From Saprospiraceae bacterium (GTDB lineage Bacteria; Bacteroidota; Bacteroidia; Chitinophagales; Saprospiraceae): a DNA stretch of 64,000 nt. Position 1 is the stretch's first letter. Each line of letters opens with the position of its first letter. The notes beneath the pieces are model-generated. The model had not been told where the DNA came from. It did not search any database and saw only the letters and a list, made by a program, of their open reading frames with translations. The stretch is taken from positions 62,001 through 126,000 of the forward strand of contig JAIYAP010000059.1 in the NCBI GenBank assembly GCA_027488935.1, in the 5' to 3' direction. Made by a program: the position numbers and the translations under genes. Shown in pieces: positions 35,683 to 45,101 of this stretch.

Positions 35683-35803
35683 GGGGCAAAAATATATAAA
35701 TTAATCACATTATTTCGCCACTTTTTTTTAAAATTTGCCCCTTGATTGGATTTTACACGCCAAACTAACCCACACCCGGGAATCACTCATACAAGCGATC
35801 TTC

Positions 35804-38800
35804 ATGCAAGGCCCATTCCGAATATATTTTTCTGTAGACAAACAGGATATCACCTTTGCAGAGCAACTAGAGCGGCATTTGCGGCAGGCGATGCCCGGGA
35901 CGGAACTGTTGATTTGGAATGGGAGCCACCAAGTACCCGAAACTTACCGAAAACAGGCGGCACAGTTTCTGGAAAAAACACAGTTGTTTATTGCCTTCGT
36001 TTCGGTGCACTATGAAGATACGAGCAATGCACGCTGGGAATTGCAACAAGCCCTGGATGTTTATAATCGGCGATCTTCCTTCCGTATTTTGAGCGTACTT
36101 ACACGCAGTGCCTTCATTCCCAATGCATTACAGGGTTTTCCGATTACTCCGGGCGACCATGACCCCGTGGAGCAGTCTGGCCTTTCCGTCGATCGACAAT
36201 TGGTAAGGGTAGCCGAAACGGTGCGCGCCATGCTGTTCAATGCACCCAAAGCGCCCAAATACAGTAAGGTAAAACTTAGCCTCGACCTGTCGGATGTGCG
36301 CGAGCGATTGCTTCCGCTGCTCGATCGTGTTGATTTTAAACCCGTTTTCGACCTCCTGAAGGCAATCGCCTATGATGCGGCCTTGCTCAAATCGCTTTTT
36401 GAAGCCGAAGATGCGTTTACCAACCTGATCCAGCAATCGCGCGGCCTGAAAACCAACCTGGAGGAGTTTTTGGCAAAAAAGGAGCAATACCGAACCCAAT
36501 TACAAAATATTATTCAATACCTGCAAGCTGACGAATTGGTTCCTGCCTGGGAACGGATTTTTATTGACCACTATTACAATTTCCAAAAAGCGCCAGAACC
36601 CGCCGTCGCGCCGTATTTTTTCATCCCTACAGAGCACATTGCGATTCCGGAAACCCTGCATTTGCCCGGAGCACAAGGCGCTGCTTTGAGTGCCGAGGCC
36701 ATCGGGCTGCTTTCTTATCAGCAAAAACAGGATTTTCGCCGCAGTCTGTTGCTCGCACAAGATGCCATTGCTATTGAAAACTTCGCGCGTGCGTATGCGC
36801 ATTGCGAGCACGTAAGGACCCACATCGACCCAGAATCGGCACAACTATATGAATATCTGCTGATTACATATATTTACAACAACAAATCAGAGCAAATTAT
36901 TACCGATGCTTTGCGTGCAGAAGGCCGCATGCTCAACCATACGACTTTGTACAGTGGCCGCCTGCAACGGTATCAGGAGGCGGGCGATTGTCCGACTTCA
37001 ACGGGGACCTACAACCGGCGGGTTGCCGCAGAAATACTTTCCGATGGCATGCGCAACGTGTACGAAAGTTGGCAAGACGATTACATCCTCGATACCGGTA
37101 AGCGTACCAACCCCAATACCCACCAACAGGAGGCCCGGAATTTCATTGAAGCAGCACAATTGGTGTACCGGGCCGTGCATCCCATGCGCGGGGCCCTGCG
37201 TATTTTGATCAACGAACTTTGCGGTGGCGGTAAATTTAATTGGGTGAGCCGGGTCGTATTTGCGGCGGATGAAATTCGGCTCCTGAGCAATGAGCGTTTT
37301 GACCTGGAAAGCCAAATAACCGAATTGATTGCCCTGATTGAAGTAGTAGACGCTGGTTTTCCGGAAAAACAAGCGCAACAACGCCTTTTGTTGCGCGAGA
37401 ATCTGTATTTTAATTTGTTGGCCAAAAGGCAACTTTTGGCGGCGCAAGTAGCCGAAGAGCAGCGCAACAACCAGCAATTCACCGATATTTACGCATCGGT
37501 CATTAGGTTTATGCAGGCTTGTTTGTTGGGCCATCAAATGTTTGGAGAGGCATCCCAAAACAATAAAGACCAGTCTTTTTTACGGCTGGCACTCGAGTAC
37601 TTGTTGCCCGATTTGGTGATTGATCCGGATCCGGTCGCCTTATTTCCCCATTTGCGTTGGTTTGATTTTGATGCAAAAGGCAATTTTGTGGCCCATGACG
37701 ACAGTCGTTCCTATCAGTTTGAGGCATTGGCGATTCTAGAAAAAATTGTACAAGCTCATGCCGGAAAAGCCGGATGGATGCAGGTTGCACCTAATATCAA
37801 ATCGGCTGTTTATCACCAGTTTAATGCCGATACGGAAGCGCTGTATGAATCCGTAAAAACAGGATTGAAATGGACCGATATTCGGCGCATGCACCCCGTG
37901 GATGCCCGAAAAAAGATCATTACCTGCCTACAGCGCTGGATGAGTGCCTATTATGCTTTTCCGGAACTTGGACAACCGATGCTCGATCGGATCATTACCG
38001 AAATCGTAGGCCTGGGGCAAATGAACTGGCTTTTTCACGACCCGTATGAATTGGCCACGCATCCTGACAGCCTCGCCTACGGGTTTGATGCCCGGGCAAA
38101 ACTGAAGGAAGCCTTGCGCTTTTCGCAACACCATACCGAAGCCTCCCTGCGCCAAACGATTGCTCAACACCTGTTTGAAGCGCGCATTTTGCCAGCCTAC
38201 AATGCAATAGAAAAGAACCAAGAGACCCAACGTACCCTCCTGGTGCGGTTGTTGCTGGAATGCCTGACTGGTTATCGCTTGCACGCGGATTCAGCCATGC
38301 TCGATTTTGTGTACCGGGAATTGACGGAAGAAATCAAATTTCGCTGGATTGATATTGACCTCAAAGGCCATGCTTGTGCTTGGCCATTTCAGGACGATTA
38401 TCAATTTGATCCGCTGAATGTATTGGAATTGCTCCACCAACAAAACCCCGAAAGATACCGGCGCTATGAAGTGCGCGAACGTATTGCGCAGCACCGTTAC
38501 CGCGACTTAAGTACCCAATACCTGCATGAAATCAGCGAGTACAGCAAAGAAAACCGCCGTCCGGAGCGCGAAATTGCCATTGGCATTGTGCGCCGCATGA
38601 AAGCAGTTTTTCGGTACTGTCCCAAAGAAATTTACCTCGAACTCCCATACCGGGAATTGTCTGGCAAAGGTCGTATCCGCTGGTATGGGATGGCGCTGGG
38701 GCTGCTGCCCACCCGTGAAAATCATTTCGAAAACCAGTTTTACGACTTTGATTACCGCTACGAATTGTTCGAATGCAAAAAACTGATGAGCAAACAATTC

Positions 38801-38848
38801 GAATTACTCCGAGCGGTTATGATCGAAACAGGCGAAATTGAGGCTTAA
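35804..38848 (+). CDS. TIR-like domain protein with large uncharacterised C-terminal repeat region
   Basis: N-terminus FRIYFSVDKQDITFAEQLERHLRQAMPGTELLIWNGSHQVPETYRKQAAQFLEKTQLFIAFVSVHYEDTSNARWELQQALDVY fits a TIR-domain pattern. The rest is unrecognised, with internal ~105-130 aa repeats. ATG 35804 preferred over 35735. Confidence 0.8.
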   Translation: MQGPFRIYFSVDKQDITFAEQLERHLRQAMPGTELLIWNGSHQVPETYRKQAAQFLEKTQLFIAFVSVHYEDTSNARWELQQALDVYNRRSSFRILSVLTRSAFIPNALQGFPITPGDHDPVEQSGLSVDRQLVRVAETVRAMLFNAPKAPKYSKVKLSLDLSDVRERLLPLLDRVDFKPVFDLLKAIAYDAALLKSLFEAEDAFTNLIQQSRGLKTNLEEFLAKKEQYRTQLQNIIQYLQADELVPAWERIFIDHYYNFQKAPEPAVAPYFFIPTEHIAIPETLHLPGAQGAALSAEAIGLLSYQQKQDFRRSLLLAQDAIAIENFARAYAHCEHVRTHIDPESAQLYEYLLITYIYNNKSEQIITDALRAEGRMLNHTTLYSGRLQRYQEAGDCPTSTGTYNRRVAAEILSDGMRNVYESWQDDYILDTGKRTNPNTHQQEARNFIEAAQLVYRAVHPMRGALRILINELCGGGKFNWVSRVVFAADEIRLLSNERFDLESQITELIALIEVVDAGFPEKQAQQRLLLRENLYFNLLAKRQLLAAQVAEEQRNNQQFTDIYASVIRFMQACLLGHQMFGEASQNNKDQSFLRLALEYLLPDLVIDPDPVALFPHLRWFDFDAKGNFVAHDDSRSYQFEALAILEKIVQAHAGKAGWMQVAPNIKSAVYHQFNADTEALYESVKTGLKWTDIRRMHPVDARKKIITCLQRWMSAYYAFPELGQPMLDRIITEIVGLGQMNWLFHDPYELATHPDSLAYGFDARAKLKEALRFSQHHTEASLRQTIAQHLFEARILPAYNAIEKNQETQRTLLVRLLLECLTGYRLHADSAMLDFVYRELTEEIKFRWIDIDLKGHACAWPFQDDYQFDPLNVLELLHQQNPERYRRYEVRERIAQHRYRDLSTQYLHEISEYSKENRRPEREIAIGIVRRMKAVFRYCPKEIYLELPYRELSGKGRIRWYGMALGLLPTRENHFENQFYDFDYRYELFECKKLMSKQFELLRAVMIETGEIEA

Positions 38849-38851
38849 ATG

Positions 38852-41800
38852 CTATCGAATGACCGTCACATCACCCTTGAACCAGTCCACCACCCCATCG
38901 GAATAGCGAATGCGGGCTTGCCAAACATACACACCCGGCAAAGGAGGTTCGCCTTTTACACGCCCATCCCAGCCATCGAGTTCATCGTTGAACAACAGTC
39001 CGTTTTTCTCATAAACCATTGCCCCCCATCGGTTAAAAATTTGCAGTAATTCTATTTCGGCAACATTGCGCCCAAAAAGGGTAAATCGCTCATTTTCGCC
39101 GTCGCCATTGGGTGAAATAATATTCGGAAAATACACATACCGCGAGGGATTTACCCGCACTTGTATTCGATCAAGGGCCGTACAACCAAATAAATCCGTA
39201 ACCTTCAGGGTGTATTCCGTTGTTTCCAAGGGCGATGCAATTGGATTTGGGCAATCGGTACAAGACAAATGTTCCGCTGGCGACCATGCCCACTGTGCAA
39301 TAGAATCCGGTCCAGGTGTAGTAGTCGGCAACATGGTATAGCCCGTTCCCAATTCAATTAAGGTAAATTCCGTTAATTTCACCTTTGGAATTTTCGGCGC
39401 TTCAATCTTGACTGTTTGAAAACTGGTACAGCCAAATTGATCCCGCACGACTGGGTAATAGGTGGCCGGTGCCAAATCCGTGAAAATGGACTGGGTTTGG
39501 AAAATGACCCCACCATCAATGGCATACGTATATGGCCCTGCCCCACCCTTAACATCTTCAATGGAAATCAATGTACTCGGATCGATGCAACTGGGCTGAA
39601 TAACATTGAGTTCAAATGCCGGTAAATCCACCTCCGACACATTGGTATTTGAAACTGCGCTACATCCATTATTTGGGTTGGTAACCGTTAATATGTAATT
39701 ACCTGGGGCCGAAACAATTGGACTCAGTGTTTGTGCACCCGCATCAATCACGCCATTCGTAGTAGACCAACTAAACTGCATGCCAGGCCCAGTGGTACTA
39801 TTTCCCAATAACGCAACTTTGGGTTGGGTACAAAACAAAATAAGGGGCGGACCAGCGTCTGCATTGGGCGGTAAACGATCCATTTCAACCAGCACAGTAT
39901 CGGAAGAAGCACATCCATTTTGCTGATTTTCAATGGTTAATATATACATTCCGGTATCTTGCACTGTTGCGTTTAAACCTTGTTGCTGATTTAAGTTTAA
40001 ACCGTTTATATCCGTCCAGTTTTGGGTAAAATTGGCACCAACACTCGAACCATTGGCATTCAACAAGGCACTGTCCCGCAAACAAGTAAAAGGCAAAGCC
40101 GGCAAAATCTGAACCTTTGGCGCTGCCGTATCTGCCTGAATCACCACCTGCGCGGTGTCGGTACAGCCATTTGCGCTATCTTGTACCTGCAAAACATAGG
40201 TGCCCGCCGCGCCCACCAGGGCTACTGCGCTATTGGCATTGTTCAAAATAGACCCGTTTGCCGTGCTCCATTGATAACTCAAGCTGCCTATTCCCGATGA
40301 AGTACTTCCATTTACATCACCGCTCGGTGCGGTACAAGTAATTTTAAAACCAGCACCTGCTTGTGCTACGGGTGGGGTAATGTTTTGTAAAACCGTGGTC
40401 ATTGCGCTGGCTTTACACCCGTTTTGCAAACTGGTAATGGTCAATATATAAGTCCCCGTTTGGCCTGCAACCGCATTCAAATTGTTGTTTGCGCCCACAA
40501 TTTGACCATTGCTCGTGCTCCACAATGCGGTGTTTCCAAAGGCCGGTAAAGGAATACCCAGCAATGGAATGGTCTTCAGGCTGCAATCCAGGGTATCCGG
40601 TATCTGAATACTCAATTGGGGTGCAATCGTATCAATTGCAAGCGTTAATACAGTGGAATCCTGGCATCCAGTTTGGTTATCGGTTAATACCAATTGATAA
40701 TCACCTGCCTGATTGACCGTCGGATTGGATTGTTGTGCACCACTCAGGATATTGCCATTCAGTGTTGACCAACTATATTGGTAATTGCCGGTTGCCGGAT
40801 TGCCCTGCAACGTACGGATTGTATCCACACAGGTAAGTGGAGCAGCGGTATTTACACTGATTGGCGGCGGACTAATATTCTGCATAACGACCACCGAAGC
40901 TATAGCCGTACAACCATTTACAGGGTTGGTTACCAACAAGTTGTACGTGCCTGCCGAATCAACTAAAGGTGAACTGGTGTTGCCCGCAGCAATAATATTT
41001 CCACCATTTGAGGCGGTCCAGGCAAAATTTACGCCGGGTGGGTTGGCCCCCACGGACAATAAATTAAACTGTTTCAAGGCACAAGTGAGCACCTGCGGGT
41101 TGCCAATTTTAGCCACGGGTTGCAGGGTATCAATAAATACCCGAACCGTATCAAAAGCTTCACAACCGGTGATGGTGTCGCGCACAGTCAGCACATAAAT
41201 ACCAGGGCCATCTACCTGAATCGCCAAATTTTTGGGATCGCCTATAATATTACCCTGGTTCAACAGGTCGATCCACTGATAAGACGGCACCCCATAAACA
41301 CCCGCCATGCCCTGTAAATCAATAATTTGTACATTACAGTTGATCACCCTGTCAAAACCGGCATTGACCGTGGGCGGCGTCGATTGTTGCAATACGATGA
41401 TGGAGTCGCTCGCCGAGCAGCCACTGATGCTATCTTCCACGGTAAATAGGTAAGTACCTGGCTGGTTTACCAAAGCAACCATGGTATTTGCGCCCGACAG
41501 CACTGTTCCCTGAGCGCTGGTCCAACTATATAAGGGCTGCGTATTGTTGGTAAAACCGACCAATTGCAATTGCGGATCAAAACAAGTGAGTGAAACGGTA
41601 TCAGCCGTTGCGGCTACCGGCGGAATGGTATCAATGGATACGAGTATCGTATCTATAGTGTTACAACCATTGGCCGGATTGGTGCCCGTTATCCGGTAAT
41701 TTCCAGGTGTACTAGCCGTTGCCTGGGAGGTATTTTGTCCGGCAATTAGGGTTCCATTGTTGGTTTGCCACTGGTAGGTCAAATTGGTGATGCTGCTGCT

Positions 41801-44800
41801 GGCTTGTAAAGTCGCTGTTGGTGTTTTGCAAGTAATCGCGCCAGTCGGCAAAACCTGCAAATCGGGCGCTACCTGATCGGCATTCACCAACAAGGTATCG
41901 CTGGCCGTACAGGCATTTATTGGATTGGTTACCAGGACGATGTAAGCCCCAGGCTGATTTACGGTAATTTGATCCAGATTTGGATTGCCGGCGATGTTAC
42001 CGCCAATGGTAGACCAGGAATATTGTACATTGACCATCAAGCCCTGATTGACCAACAATTGTGCGGTCGTTTGTAGGCAGGTAAGCAACACGGTATCTGC
42101 CCCTGCCAGTGCGGGCGGTGCGAGGGTATCTCGAAGTACGGTTACCGAATCAACCGAAGTACAACCATTTAAAATATTGGTAATCAATAATTTATAATCA
42201 CCTTCAGTGCCAATACCAGGATTGGGTTGATCGGCAGGACTAAGCAGTAGTCCGCCATTGGTGGCAGTCCAGGTATATTCAAATTCTGGCCCGACCGAGG
42301 ATCCAGTACTCGACAATTGAAAACTAAGCGTAGCACAATCGAGCGTATCAGGTTGCGCAATCACAGCAGTGGGAGCACCCGTTGCAATCACCACGGTGGC
42401 GGTATCCGTTGCACTGCATCCATTGTTGGCTTGGGCACTCAATAAGATATACTGGCCTGCTGCATTAACCAAGGGCGTCAGGGTATTGTTGCCAGAAACG
42501 ATATTGCCACCAATGGTCGTCCAGGTGTACGTATAAACGCCAACAGAATCTGTAATGCTTGCCACCAAGGCGAGATTGGGTTGCACACAGGTAATAGTAT
42601 CGGGTATCGCAATTTGAATATCCGGCTTCAAGGTATCAATTTCAACAACTGCAAAATCAACTGCGGTACAGCCGCTTGCAGGATTGGTTATAAGGAGTTG
42701 GTACGTGCCCGGCGCATCTACTTGTGCCGTTGGACCATCAACAGCCGTGGTGTAATTCCCACCTGAACCGGCAGCAATCGACCAGGCATATAGCAATCCG
42801 GGTACATTGGTCGAACCTGTTGAATTCAATCCCACTGTAAAAATCTGACAATCAAGCGTATCTATTGAATTGGCAACGGCCACAATCACATTTGCATCGG
42901 CGGTAACCTGCACCGTAGCGGTATCGCTGCAACCATTGGTGGTGTTGCTGACCAATAATTGATACAATCCAGGTGCATTAACGACCGGGTTTAAGGTTTG
43001 TCCACCCGACACCACATTTCCTCCGTTGTTCGATGACCATTGGTAGGTAATATTCGGTCCGGTACTTGACCCTGTTCCATTCAATACCACGGAAGTTTGC
43101 TGGCACGTAAGGTTATTGGCCGGCCCCACGACCGCGATGGGTGTTTGCACATCTATATTTACAGTTACCGATAAGGTTTGTGTGCAAAAGTTGCTGGTAT
43201 CGGTCACCAACAATTGATAAACTGCGGGTGTAAGCACCAACAATTGGGTATTATTATTACTGCCTGCGATGCTGCCGCCCGGTCCGGCAGTCCACAAAAG
43301 AACTGCGTCACTTGGCGTGATGGTTACGATAATGGGCAAGGTATCGACCAGGCAATTTAATACGCCCGGTGGTACCAACGATATCGTCGGGCGTATGGTG
43401 TCGGCTACTACCAGTACAGAATCAAGGGTAAAGCAGGTATTGCTGGTATTTAATACCCTTAATATATACAAACCGCCCGCGCCCGCTACAGCATTGATGG
43501 TATTTTGCCCTGAAACAATGATCCCATTTGGACTGCTCCAACTATATTGAATGGTACCGCCGCTGCTCGATCCGCTTCCACTGAGGTTGCTTTGCAGGGC
43601 TTGGCAATTGATCGGACCACTGGCATTGGCAATAGCGATTGGCGGGTTATTGGCCACAATGACGGTCGTGGTTGCCGTTGCAGAGCAGCCATTAAAAATA
43701 TTGGTAACCGTAAGCGTATATATTCCTGGCTGATTCACCTGCGCAGTAGCGGTGTTCGCCCCCGCCACAATATTGCCATTGGTGGTCGACCATGCATAAC
43801 TTACCGCACCTTGGTTGGATTGACCCGTGATATTAACCGTAGTTCCGCCACAGCCCAGCGGTTGAGGTGGGAAAATGGATGCGGAGAGAGCATTTGGATT
43901 TAAAATTACGGTAACGTTGGTGCTTTTCGTGCATTGTCCGGTACCATAATCATAACGCACCGTCAGGGTATAGGTACCCGGCTGATCAATAACAGGCGTC
44001 AGGGTGGTGCCCCCGGAAACGATATTACCATCGCTGGTTTCCCATAAATATGAAATATCGGGGCCTGTACTCGATCCCGTTCCATTTAAGGTTAAAGTAG
44101 CGCCCGCACAGGGCAAATTCAAAAAAGAAGGGTTCGCCACTGCGGCCAGATTGACAATTTGCACTCTAACTGTATCTGTTTGCGTACAAATTGGACTTAA
44201 AGCAATATCATCAAGCCCGAAATCATTGTTAGAGCCGGTTACAGTCAAATTTTCAATACAAATGGTCGCACTCGTGTTTGCACCGCTGTTCCAAATCGCT
44301 GAAAAAGGGCGCCACAAACATTGGGGCGGTAGCACACTCAATGGTCCGCCAATTTGCACGCCATTAATGGTAAATCTTAATAAGGCAAACGGTGCATTAG
44401 TGACAAAAGATAAGGCCCAAGCAGAAAGTTCATACTGGGTATTCGGTGTAACCGTTACGGTTTGACACCACAAAAACAAATTAGGCGCTTGCGCACCGTC
44501 CACAATCATGTAATTGCCCGAACCGGAAGTATGGTCGGGGCAGGCTGGAAAAGCAGCGGGCACACTCGCCACTTCATACGAACCAAAAGGAAACATGGTA
44601 AATCCGGGATTGTAAATATAATCGGTACTAAACCCGCTATTGCCTTGTTCAAAGTCGCCATTATCCACTGCATTCAAACCTGGATCGACTGCAGTTGCAC
44701 TCAATACATAATTTAAGGTCTGATTGACATTTACCGTAGGTGTTAAGGTGTTGGCACCAGTCATGCCCGTGGTGGGCGTCCATAAAAAACCAAGGTAATT

Positions 44801-45010
44801 CCCGCTAATATTTCCATCCAGGGTAACTGCTGCGGGCGGATTACAAACGTATTGGTCAGGACCGGCATCCACCGTTATGGGGCATTGTGCGTTCATGTTG
44901 AGTGTAGTGCAGCACCCAAGCGCCCAAAAAATAAAAAAATATTTGCCGGATTGAAACAGGGTTACAAACTGATTAGCAGCACGCGGAACCCATAAAAGAT
45001 GAAGAAGCAT
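38852..45010 (-). CDS. Giant secreted adhesin-like protein with >=18 Ig/PKD-like repeats and CHU_C (gliding motility-type) C-terminal domain
   Basis: Repeat pattern (L/V)xCxxxxxxLxGxxSxxGxxxxYxWSTxNGxIxxGxxTxxxxVxxPGxYxLxVTNxxNGCxxxDxxxV; C-terminus YFPNIISPNGDGENERFTLFGRNVAEIELLQIFNRWGAMVYE...GVYVWQARIRYSDG. Start trimmed to 45010. Confidence 0.93.
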   Translation of the reverse strand: MLLHLLWVPRAANQFVTLFQSGKYFFIFWALGCCTTLNMNAQCPITVDAGPDQYVCNPPAAVTLDGNISGNYLGFLWTPTTGMTGANTLTPTVNVNQTLNYVLSATAVDPGLNAVDNGDFEQGNSGFSTDYIYNPGFTMFPFGSYEVASVPAAFPACPDHTSGSGNYMIVDGAQAPNLFLWCQTVTVTPNTQYELSAWALSFVTNAPFALLRFTINGVQIGGPLSVLPPQCLWRPFSAIWNSGANTSATICIENLTVTGSNNDFGLDDIALSPICTQTDTVRVQIVNLAAVANPSFLNLPCAGATLTLNGTGSSTGPDISYLWETSDGNIVSGGTTLTPVIDQPGTYTLTVRYDYGTGQCTKSTNVTVILNPNALSASIFPPQPLGCGGTTVNITGQSNQGAVSYAWSTTNGNIVAGANTATAQVNQPGIYTLTVTNIFNGCSATATTTVIVANNPPIAIANASGPINCQALQSNLSGSGSSSGGTIQYSWSSPNGIIVSGQNTINAVAGAGGLYILRVLNTSNTCFTLDSVLVVADTIRPTISLVPPGVLNCLVDTLPIIVTITPSDAVLLWTAGPGGSIAGSNNNTQLLVLTPAVYQLLVTDTSNFCTQTLSVTVNIDVQTPIAVVGPANNLTCQQTSVVLNGTGSSTGPNITYQWSSNNGGNVVSGGQTLNPVVNAPGLYQLLVSNTTNGCSDTATVQVTADANVIVAVANSIDTLDCQIFTVGLNSTGSTNVPGLLYAWSIAAGSGGNYTTAVDGPTAQVDAPGTYQLLITNPASGCTAVDFAVVEIDTLKPDIQIAIPDTITCVQPNLALVASITDSVGVYTYTWTTIGGNIVSGNNTLTPLVNAAGQYILLSAQANNGCSATDTATVVIATGAPTAVIAQPDTLDCATLSFQLSSTGSSVGPEFEYTWTATNGGLLLSPADQPNPGIGTEGDYKLLITNILNGCTSVDSVTVLRDTLAPPALAGADTVLLTCLQTTAQLLVNQGLMVNVQYSWSTIGGNIAGNPNLDQITVNQPGAYIVLVTNPINACTASDTLLVNADQVAPDLQVLPTGAITCKTPTATLQASSSITNLTYQWQTNNGTLIAGQNTSQATASTPGNYRITGTNPANGCNTIDTILVSIDTIPPVAATADTVSLTCFDPQLQLVGFTNNTQPLYSWTSAQGTVLSGANTMVALVNQPGTYLFTVEDSISGCSASDSIIVLQQSTPPTVNAGFDRVINCNVQIIDLQGMAGVYGVPSYQWIDLLNQGNIIGDPKNLAIQVDGPGIYVLTVRDTITGCEAFDTVRVFIDTLQPVAKIGNPQVLTCALKQFNLLSVGANPPGVNFAWTASNGGNIIAAGNTSSPLVDSAGTYNLLVTNPVNGCTAIASVVVMQNISPPPISVNTAAPLTCVDTIRTLQGNPATGNYQYSWSTLNGNILSGAQQSNPTVNQAGDYQLVLTDNQTGCQDSTVLTLAIDTIAPQLSIQIPDTLDCSLKTIPLLGIPLPAFGNTALWSTSNGQIVGANNNLNAVAGQTGTYILTITSLQNGCKASAMTTVLQNITPPVAQAGAGFKITCTAPSGDVNGSTSSGIGSLSYQWSTANGSILNNANSAVALVGAAGTYVLQVQDSANGCTDTAQVVIQADTAAPKVQILPALPFTCLRDSALLNANGSSVGANFTQNWTDINGLNLNQQQGLNATVQDTGMYILTIENQQNGCASSDTVLVEMDRLPPNADAGPPLILFCTQPKVALLGNSTTGPGMQFSWSTTNGVIDAGAQTLSPIVSAPGNYILTVTNPNNGCSAVSNTNVSEVDLPAFELNVIQPSCIDPSTLISIEDVKGGAGPYTYAIDGGVIFQTQSIFTDLAPATYYPVVRDQFGCTSFQTVKIEAPKIPKVKLTEFTLIELGTGYTMLPTTTPGPDSIAQWAWSPAEHLSCTDCPNPIASPLETTEYTLKVTDLFGCTALDRIQVRVNPSRYVYFPNIISPNGDGENERFTLFGRNVAEIELLQIFNRWGAMVYEKNGLLFNDELDGWDGRVKGEPPLPGVYVWQARIRYSDGVVDWFKGDVTVIR

Positions 45011-45101
45011 ATTATTTCGGTTTTTAATTCTACTGCAATTATAGGAAACTTTTACTTGCATATACCCCGCGGCCCAAAACATCCGGTGTTAAAAAAAGAA
45101 A

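Follow-up and report, generated by a model that had tools for sequence, protein, structure and literature searches.

A genus-core TIR/EAD11-type protein of Saprospiraceae with an apparently undescribed five-copy C-terminal repeat

The closest described systems to the gene reported here are the TIR NADases, the effector-associated domain (EAD) systems, and the EAD10/GreA-GreB-C system. With the TIR NADases and the TIR_2 family (PF13676; SARM1, SPARTA TIR-APAZ, B. cereus TIR, and MyD88 folds), the gene product shares the TIR fold and a glutamate in an E-l-x-x-A helix. In the EAD proposal, homotypic EAD contacts couple effectors to core components, and the same effector may be directly fused instead (PMC7159879). 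The features in common with this principle (PMC7159879, PMC8195603), and with EAD11 (PF19964) in particular, are the fusion of an effector to a non-enzymatic domain that is small and helical, the presence of numerous EAD11 proteins in the genome, and the exchange of EAD11 with the effector in relatives. The EAD10/GreA-GreB-C system has a comparable exchangeable N-terminal effector or EAD on a constant C-terminal helical module (PMC8195603). The differences are also clear. Unlike the TIR NADases, our protein has a loop before the glutamate that is one residue shorter, has no S-x-Y motif, and is fused to a predicted EAD11 and an undescribed repeat; its NADase activity is putative. Compared with EAD systems, the EAD11 of the TIR-bearing forms is divergent and internal rather than terminal, and no vWA-MoxR, STAND, or GTPase core gene adjoins it, an nSTAND1 neighbor being present only at one distant locus (L024). 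In contrast to the EAD10/GreA-GreB-C system, it has no GreA/B-C or PIN domain and its repeats are unrelated to known families; that system is widespread and sporadic (PMC8195603), whereas the TIR-repeat gene is fixed in one genus.

The gene (35804..38848, + strand) lies in the window, which denotes the whole 64,000-nucleotide stretch analyzed (C33:62001-126000 of a 6.28 Mb, 99.96% complete genome whose nearest relatives are Saprospiraceae MAGs). The frame starts with an ATG at 35804, its stop codon ends at 38848, and the product has 1014 amino acids. It can be lengthened to a TTG 69 nt upstream, but we took the ATG as the start because the alignment of orthologues begins there. The full-length orthologue alignment and an AlphaFold model (26 sequences, mean pLDDT 84.3) point to the order TIR, EAD11, a helical block (R0), and five repeats (R1-R5). 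The intergenic stretch upstream (35683..35803, + strand) separates the gene from a divergently oriented cytochrome-c-like gene (− strand), and the ORF layout suggests that it presumably holds the gene's own promoter. On the other side is a convergent gene (38852-45082, − strand) for a secreted-looking protein of 2076 aa, which by reading contains numerous Ig/PKD-like modules that resemble one another and ends in a C-terminus of the gliding/T9SS type. Judged from the starts of their proteins, the remaining surrounding genes are metabolic and envelope-like, and no defence gene is visible among them.

The N-terminal domain (residues 1-145; 35804..36238, + strand) had been read as a TIR domain in the original prediction. 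Pfam TIR_2 matches residues 8-101 with an E-value of 1.7e-4 and 22.5 bits, slightly below the curated cut-off of 28 bits, whereas the orthologue L021 is above it (E 2.2e-9, 38.3 bits). TIR_2 matches every one of the 26 sequences in the family alignment, with a best E-value of 1e-10. The modeled N-terminus consists of alternating strands and helices, and its Foldseek matches in the PDB include MyD88 (7beq; TMt 0.73), SARM1, SPARTA, and B. cereus TIR, all at probability 1.0. The nearest fold and profile matches are MyD88-like adaptor TIRs. The profile matches in 26/26 homologues, together with the fold match of the predicted model, confirm the TIR assignment at the level of sequence and model. 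In one homologue, L027, the TIR is too divergent to reach the Pfam threshold. Foldseek also returned DNPH1, which we rejected as a related Rossmann-like fold with no sequence support.

Glu79 (36038..36040, + strand) occupies the position of the catalytic glutamate of TIR NADases, in the motif W-E-L-x-x-A, just where the glutamate of WELQQAL had been proposed to lie. This residue is Glu in 25 of the 26 aligned members, even in those with ~35% identity, and Ala in one (L111, identical to L063). It falls in the helix after the S-x-x-[FY] strand end. The canonical TIRs of the same genome have E-V-x-x-A, with their Glu one residue further from S-x-x-F than Glu79. Glu79 is therefore in the canonical E-l-x-x-A register except that the preceding loop is one residue shorter, and it is a putative catalytic residue. 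The exceptional orthologue (L063:7775-10912) is a natural Glu79-to-Ala variant with its other domains intact.

The roughly 850 residues after the TIR domain had been described as unrecognizable. This holds for R1-R5 but not for about 80 residues that are predicted to form a divergent EAD11 (residues ~165-243; 36296..36532, + strand), and the conserved helical block R0 had also been overlooked. In the AlphaFold model, residues 165-243 are four helices. Comparison of the family profile with one built from 17 EAD11s of the same genome gave an E-value of 3.5e-8 over 79 columns, whereas other segments of the protein gave 0.04-0.4. The match persisted with a genus-only profile (E 7.3e-7) and after removal of the best-matching subclade (E 1.7e-5, score 30.5); none of 60 permuted controls for the latter scored above 15.2. 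Single-sequence matches are confined to one subclade, and the domain is divergent in most orthologues. No genus member scanned exceeded the Pfam EAD11 cut-off, and the window protein was not among the listed matches; the best orthologue E-value was 0.0085, and L021 and L022 scored 13.9 and 15.1 bits against a cut-off of 26. The distant homologues L024 and L025 do exceed it. Because the profile-profile matches beat the controls and Pfam recognizes the domain in L024 and L025, we assign this region as a divergent EAD11, an assignment drawn from sequence comparison.

The same genome has 18 other EAD11 ORFs, including EAD11-trypsin (with a weak TIR match), EAD11-CHAT, and EAD11-kinase proteins, which could be pairing partners. 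EAD11s occur in 35/36 genomes of the genus, in 2-31 copies each. The genome G770 (L075/L106; 97% complete) has the TIR-EAD11-repeat gene and no Pfam-detectable EAD11, which suggests that partner recruitment may be dispensable and that self-assembly may suffice. The EAD11-trypsin protein with the weak C-terminal TIR match (L137:193-1758, own genome C10) is widespread in the genus and is found as two separate stretches in several species; it is absent from several small genomes that retain the TIR-repeat gene. Another combination occurs in G030 (L089:3443-7771), where a 1443-aa protein carries LRRs, two EAD11s, and a TIR, without R1-R5-type repeats. Our literature search found no relevant EAD11 paper and none linking Saprospiraceae with TIR domains.

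R0 (residues 305-437; 36716..37114, + strand) is a weakly TPR-like block delimited by model helices and conservation, and it includes the ESAQLYEYLL motif. Conservation along the protein peaks here, with a mean identity of 0.60 (residues 300-375) compared with 0.39-0.52 elsewhere. Weak TPR_14 matches were found in R0 of L022 and L026, and profile-profile comparison showed R0 to be unrelated to R1-R5.

The repeats span residues 438-1014 in units of ~95-139 aa, all on the + strand: R1 (residues 438-560; 37115..37483), R2 (561-699; 37484..37900), which has an insert between EL and W, R3 (700-807; 37901..38224), R4 (808-919; 38225..38560), and R5 (920-1014; 38561..38845), a truncated last unit. 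These units were defined by profile-profile comparison, a repeat-unit model, and secondary structure. The five-copy repeat and its motif positions (nt 37193, 37583, 37976, 38294, and 38630) had been recognized correctly by reading. In single-sequence self-comparison, only some pairs beat shuffles (R2-R4, 0/500; R4-R5, R1-R3, and R2-R3, p <= 0.01). With family profiles, all ten pairs were significant (E 2.4e-6 to 3.5e-17), whereas TIR, EAD, and R0 profiles gave 0.01-0.8; column-permuted controls for three pairs scored at most 15.5 compared with 37-96 observed. Genus-only profiles did not relate R1-R2 or R2-R5 directly but linked them via R3 and R4. The predicted secondary structure recurs five times in register as helix, helix, β-hairpin, (short helix), helix, and long helix. 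A repeat-unit model, partly circular because it derives from the family itself, finds exactly five units in the protein. The consensus is EL-x-G-x-G...W...G-x-L...FDA...L, and each unit has a β-hairpin with a conserved G-x-G...W between helix pairs. Comparison with Pfam, NCBIfam, PDB sequences, PDB folds, and viral folds gave no match, in line with the earlier view that the repeats belong to no recognized family. A Mitoguardin match in the PDB (E 0.27) was attributed to chance, and a Foldseek match to 9rtt_Q (E 7.6e-4, rmsd 31) to a long-helix artefact. R1-R5 are thus apparently an undescribed, Saprospiraceae-restricted repeat family. As far as the comparison with PDB and viral structures shows, the predicted fold is new.

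The TIR-repeat gene was found in 33/36 genomes of its genus (28/31 in an earlier set), with one copy per genome save for contig-end pieces and an additional, distant homologue in G778. The stated incompleteness summed over the 31 genomes predicts ~1.2 misses compared with three seen, so the gene may be universal in the genus. Outside the genus, it is present in a few Saprospiraceae genera (G022, G046, G051, G155, G191, G769, and G773). A phylum search of 396 genomes with the full-length alignment as the query and a class search of 295 genomes with the repeat-unit model both returned the own genome only. A copy in a Thermoanaerobaculia MAG (L109; JAKLJF010000099.1) was considered as a cross-phylum transfer and rejected as a binning contaminant, since most of its neighbors are 68-89% identical to the Saprospiraceae locus L062; gene content and synteny both place this public contig in Saprospiraceae.

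Orthologues align over the whole length of the protein, and the genus forms one clade in the tree (100/99 support). This tree has long deep branches and does not polarize the TIR/EAD11 exchange. Most homologues from other genera carry EAD11 at the N-terminus or have no TIR (L023, L024, L025, L026, L029, L085, and L086) and keep the EAD, R0, and repeats. N-terminal EAD11 was found in L025, L024, and L029, and by reading only in L023, L085, and L086; the G051 homologue has a very divergent TIR. TIR and EAD11 thus swap at the N-terminus of one shared scaffold. In G046, a small nSTAND1 ATPase gene (L024:377-1612) lies just upstream, on the same strand, of a TIR-less EAD11-R0-repeat homologue (L024:2157-4139), and the two may form a sensor-partner pair. 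Among divergent relatives, L026:4880-7633 and L090:661-2742 have a hydrophobic, possibly membrane-spanning segment before R0, and zinc-ribbon-like CxxC pairs precede R0 in L029:1608-3791 and L090:661-2742.

Flanking genes are common to subsets of the species, and the surroundings are housekeeping-like; one upstream neighbor reads as purL from its sequence. No conserved neighboring partner gene was found across the species' loci compared. For four close pairs, whole-protein dN/dS is 0.04-0.09 and no domain exceeds 0.13, and these values are in the range of the neighbors. Over 25 species pairs, mean identity is 58% for the protein compared with 69% for its neighbors, indicating a moderately fast-evolving but constrained protein. 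Since the C-terminal half is conserved about as much as the TIR or more, it does not resemble a fast-diversifying sensor. Because the gene is near-universal, has shared flanks, and is under purifying selection like its neighbors, it behaves as a lineage core gene and not as an exchangeable defence gene.

As we best read it, this is a TIR/EAD11 protein core to its genus that would function in signalling or cell death and is built on an undescribed repeat scaffold. In the mechanism we propose, the C-terminal solenoid (R0 and five helix-helix-hairpin-helix-helix repeats) would act as a scaffold that binds a ligand or partner. Activation would lead to EAD11-mediated oligomerization, either of the protein alone or together with the cell's other EAD11 proteins, and this assembly would bring TIR domains together for NAD+ cleavage via Glu79, which would produce a signal or shut the cell down. 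We give such a lineage-fixed protein, with its presumed activity, oligomerization, and trigger, a probability of roughly one half. The TIR, EAD11, five repeats, conserved glutamate, N-terminal exchange, genus-wide retention, and purifying selection support it. The finding that one scaffold bears a TIR in this genus and EAD11 in its relatives also fits the EAD proposal (PMC7159879). Ala79 in one otherwise intact orthologue (L063/L111), the divergence of EAD11, G770, and the lack of a conserved neighboring partner gene argue against it. More specifically, we tentatively suggest that the protein may have been fixed for a role in normal physiology, such as programmed cell death or the control of filaments or colonies, and not for exchangeable phage defence, with the new repeat fold as a sensor or scaffold.

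The original prediction offered, as one hypothesis, a single-gene NAD+-consuming defence or signalling protein with a repeat sensor scaffold. Its TIR and repeats stand, whereas the EAD11 makes the protein more than a TIR plus a sensor, and the anti-phage part is weakened by the genus-core status, synteny, selection, and PADLOC results. A lone abortive-infection protein, whose repeats sense a phage product and whose TIR depletes NAD+, would agree with predicted conflict systems, in which TIR plus EAD architectures are typical (PMC7159879, PMC8195603), and with the somewhat faster average divergence than that of the neighbors. Yet the distribution is not patchy, mobile, or defence-island-like, the gene being essentially single copy in nearly all genomes of the genus. 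Its surroundings are housekeeping-like and partly syntenic between species. PADLOC had no model match to the window protein and one marginal match among the 26 members (SAVED_TIR, E 0.0045), the gene was not found on viral contigs, and PHROGs had no match to the window protein. With no diversifying signal and repeats at least about as conserved as the TIR, we consider this role rather unlikely.

The core-gene status, vertical inheritance, and housekeeping-like setting would also suit a non-enzymatic scaffold in a physiological pathway of Saprospiraceae, in which the TIR is only an interaction domain as in MyD88. The adaptor TIRs among the nearest matches, the orthologue without Glu79, and the divergent TIR of L027 favor this, but the retention of Glu79 in nearly all members, some with only ~35% identity, makes it doubtful. 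It is more improbable still that R1-R5 are a known solenoid (TPR, HEAT, or Sel1) drifted past recognition. Their helical character and ~100-aa period, and the weak TPR_14 matches in the adjoining R0 of two homologues, are what such drift might leave, whereas the β-hairpin in each unit and the negative family and fold comparisons speak against it.

The TIR and EAD11 families were already known; as far as the tools show, there is no earlier description of the repeat family, of this architecture, or of its status as a genus-core gene. The repeats add an undescribed, lineage-restricted family to TIR/EAD signalling. The scaffold, which bears a TIR in this genus and mostly EAD11 in its relatives, is a natural experiment for EAD coupling, and the natural Glu-to-Ala orthologue offers a ready comparison. 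A single-copy, genus-core TIR gene opens the question of bacterial TIR roles outside mobile phage defence.
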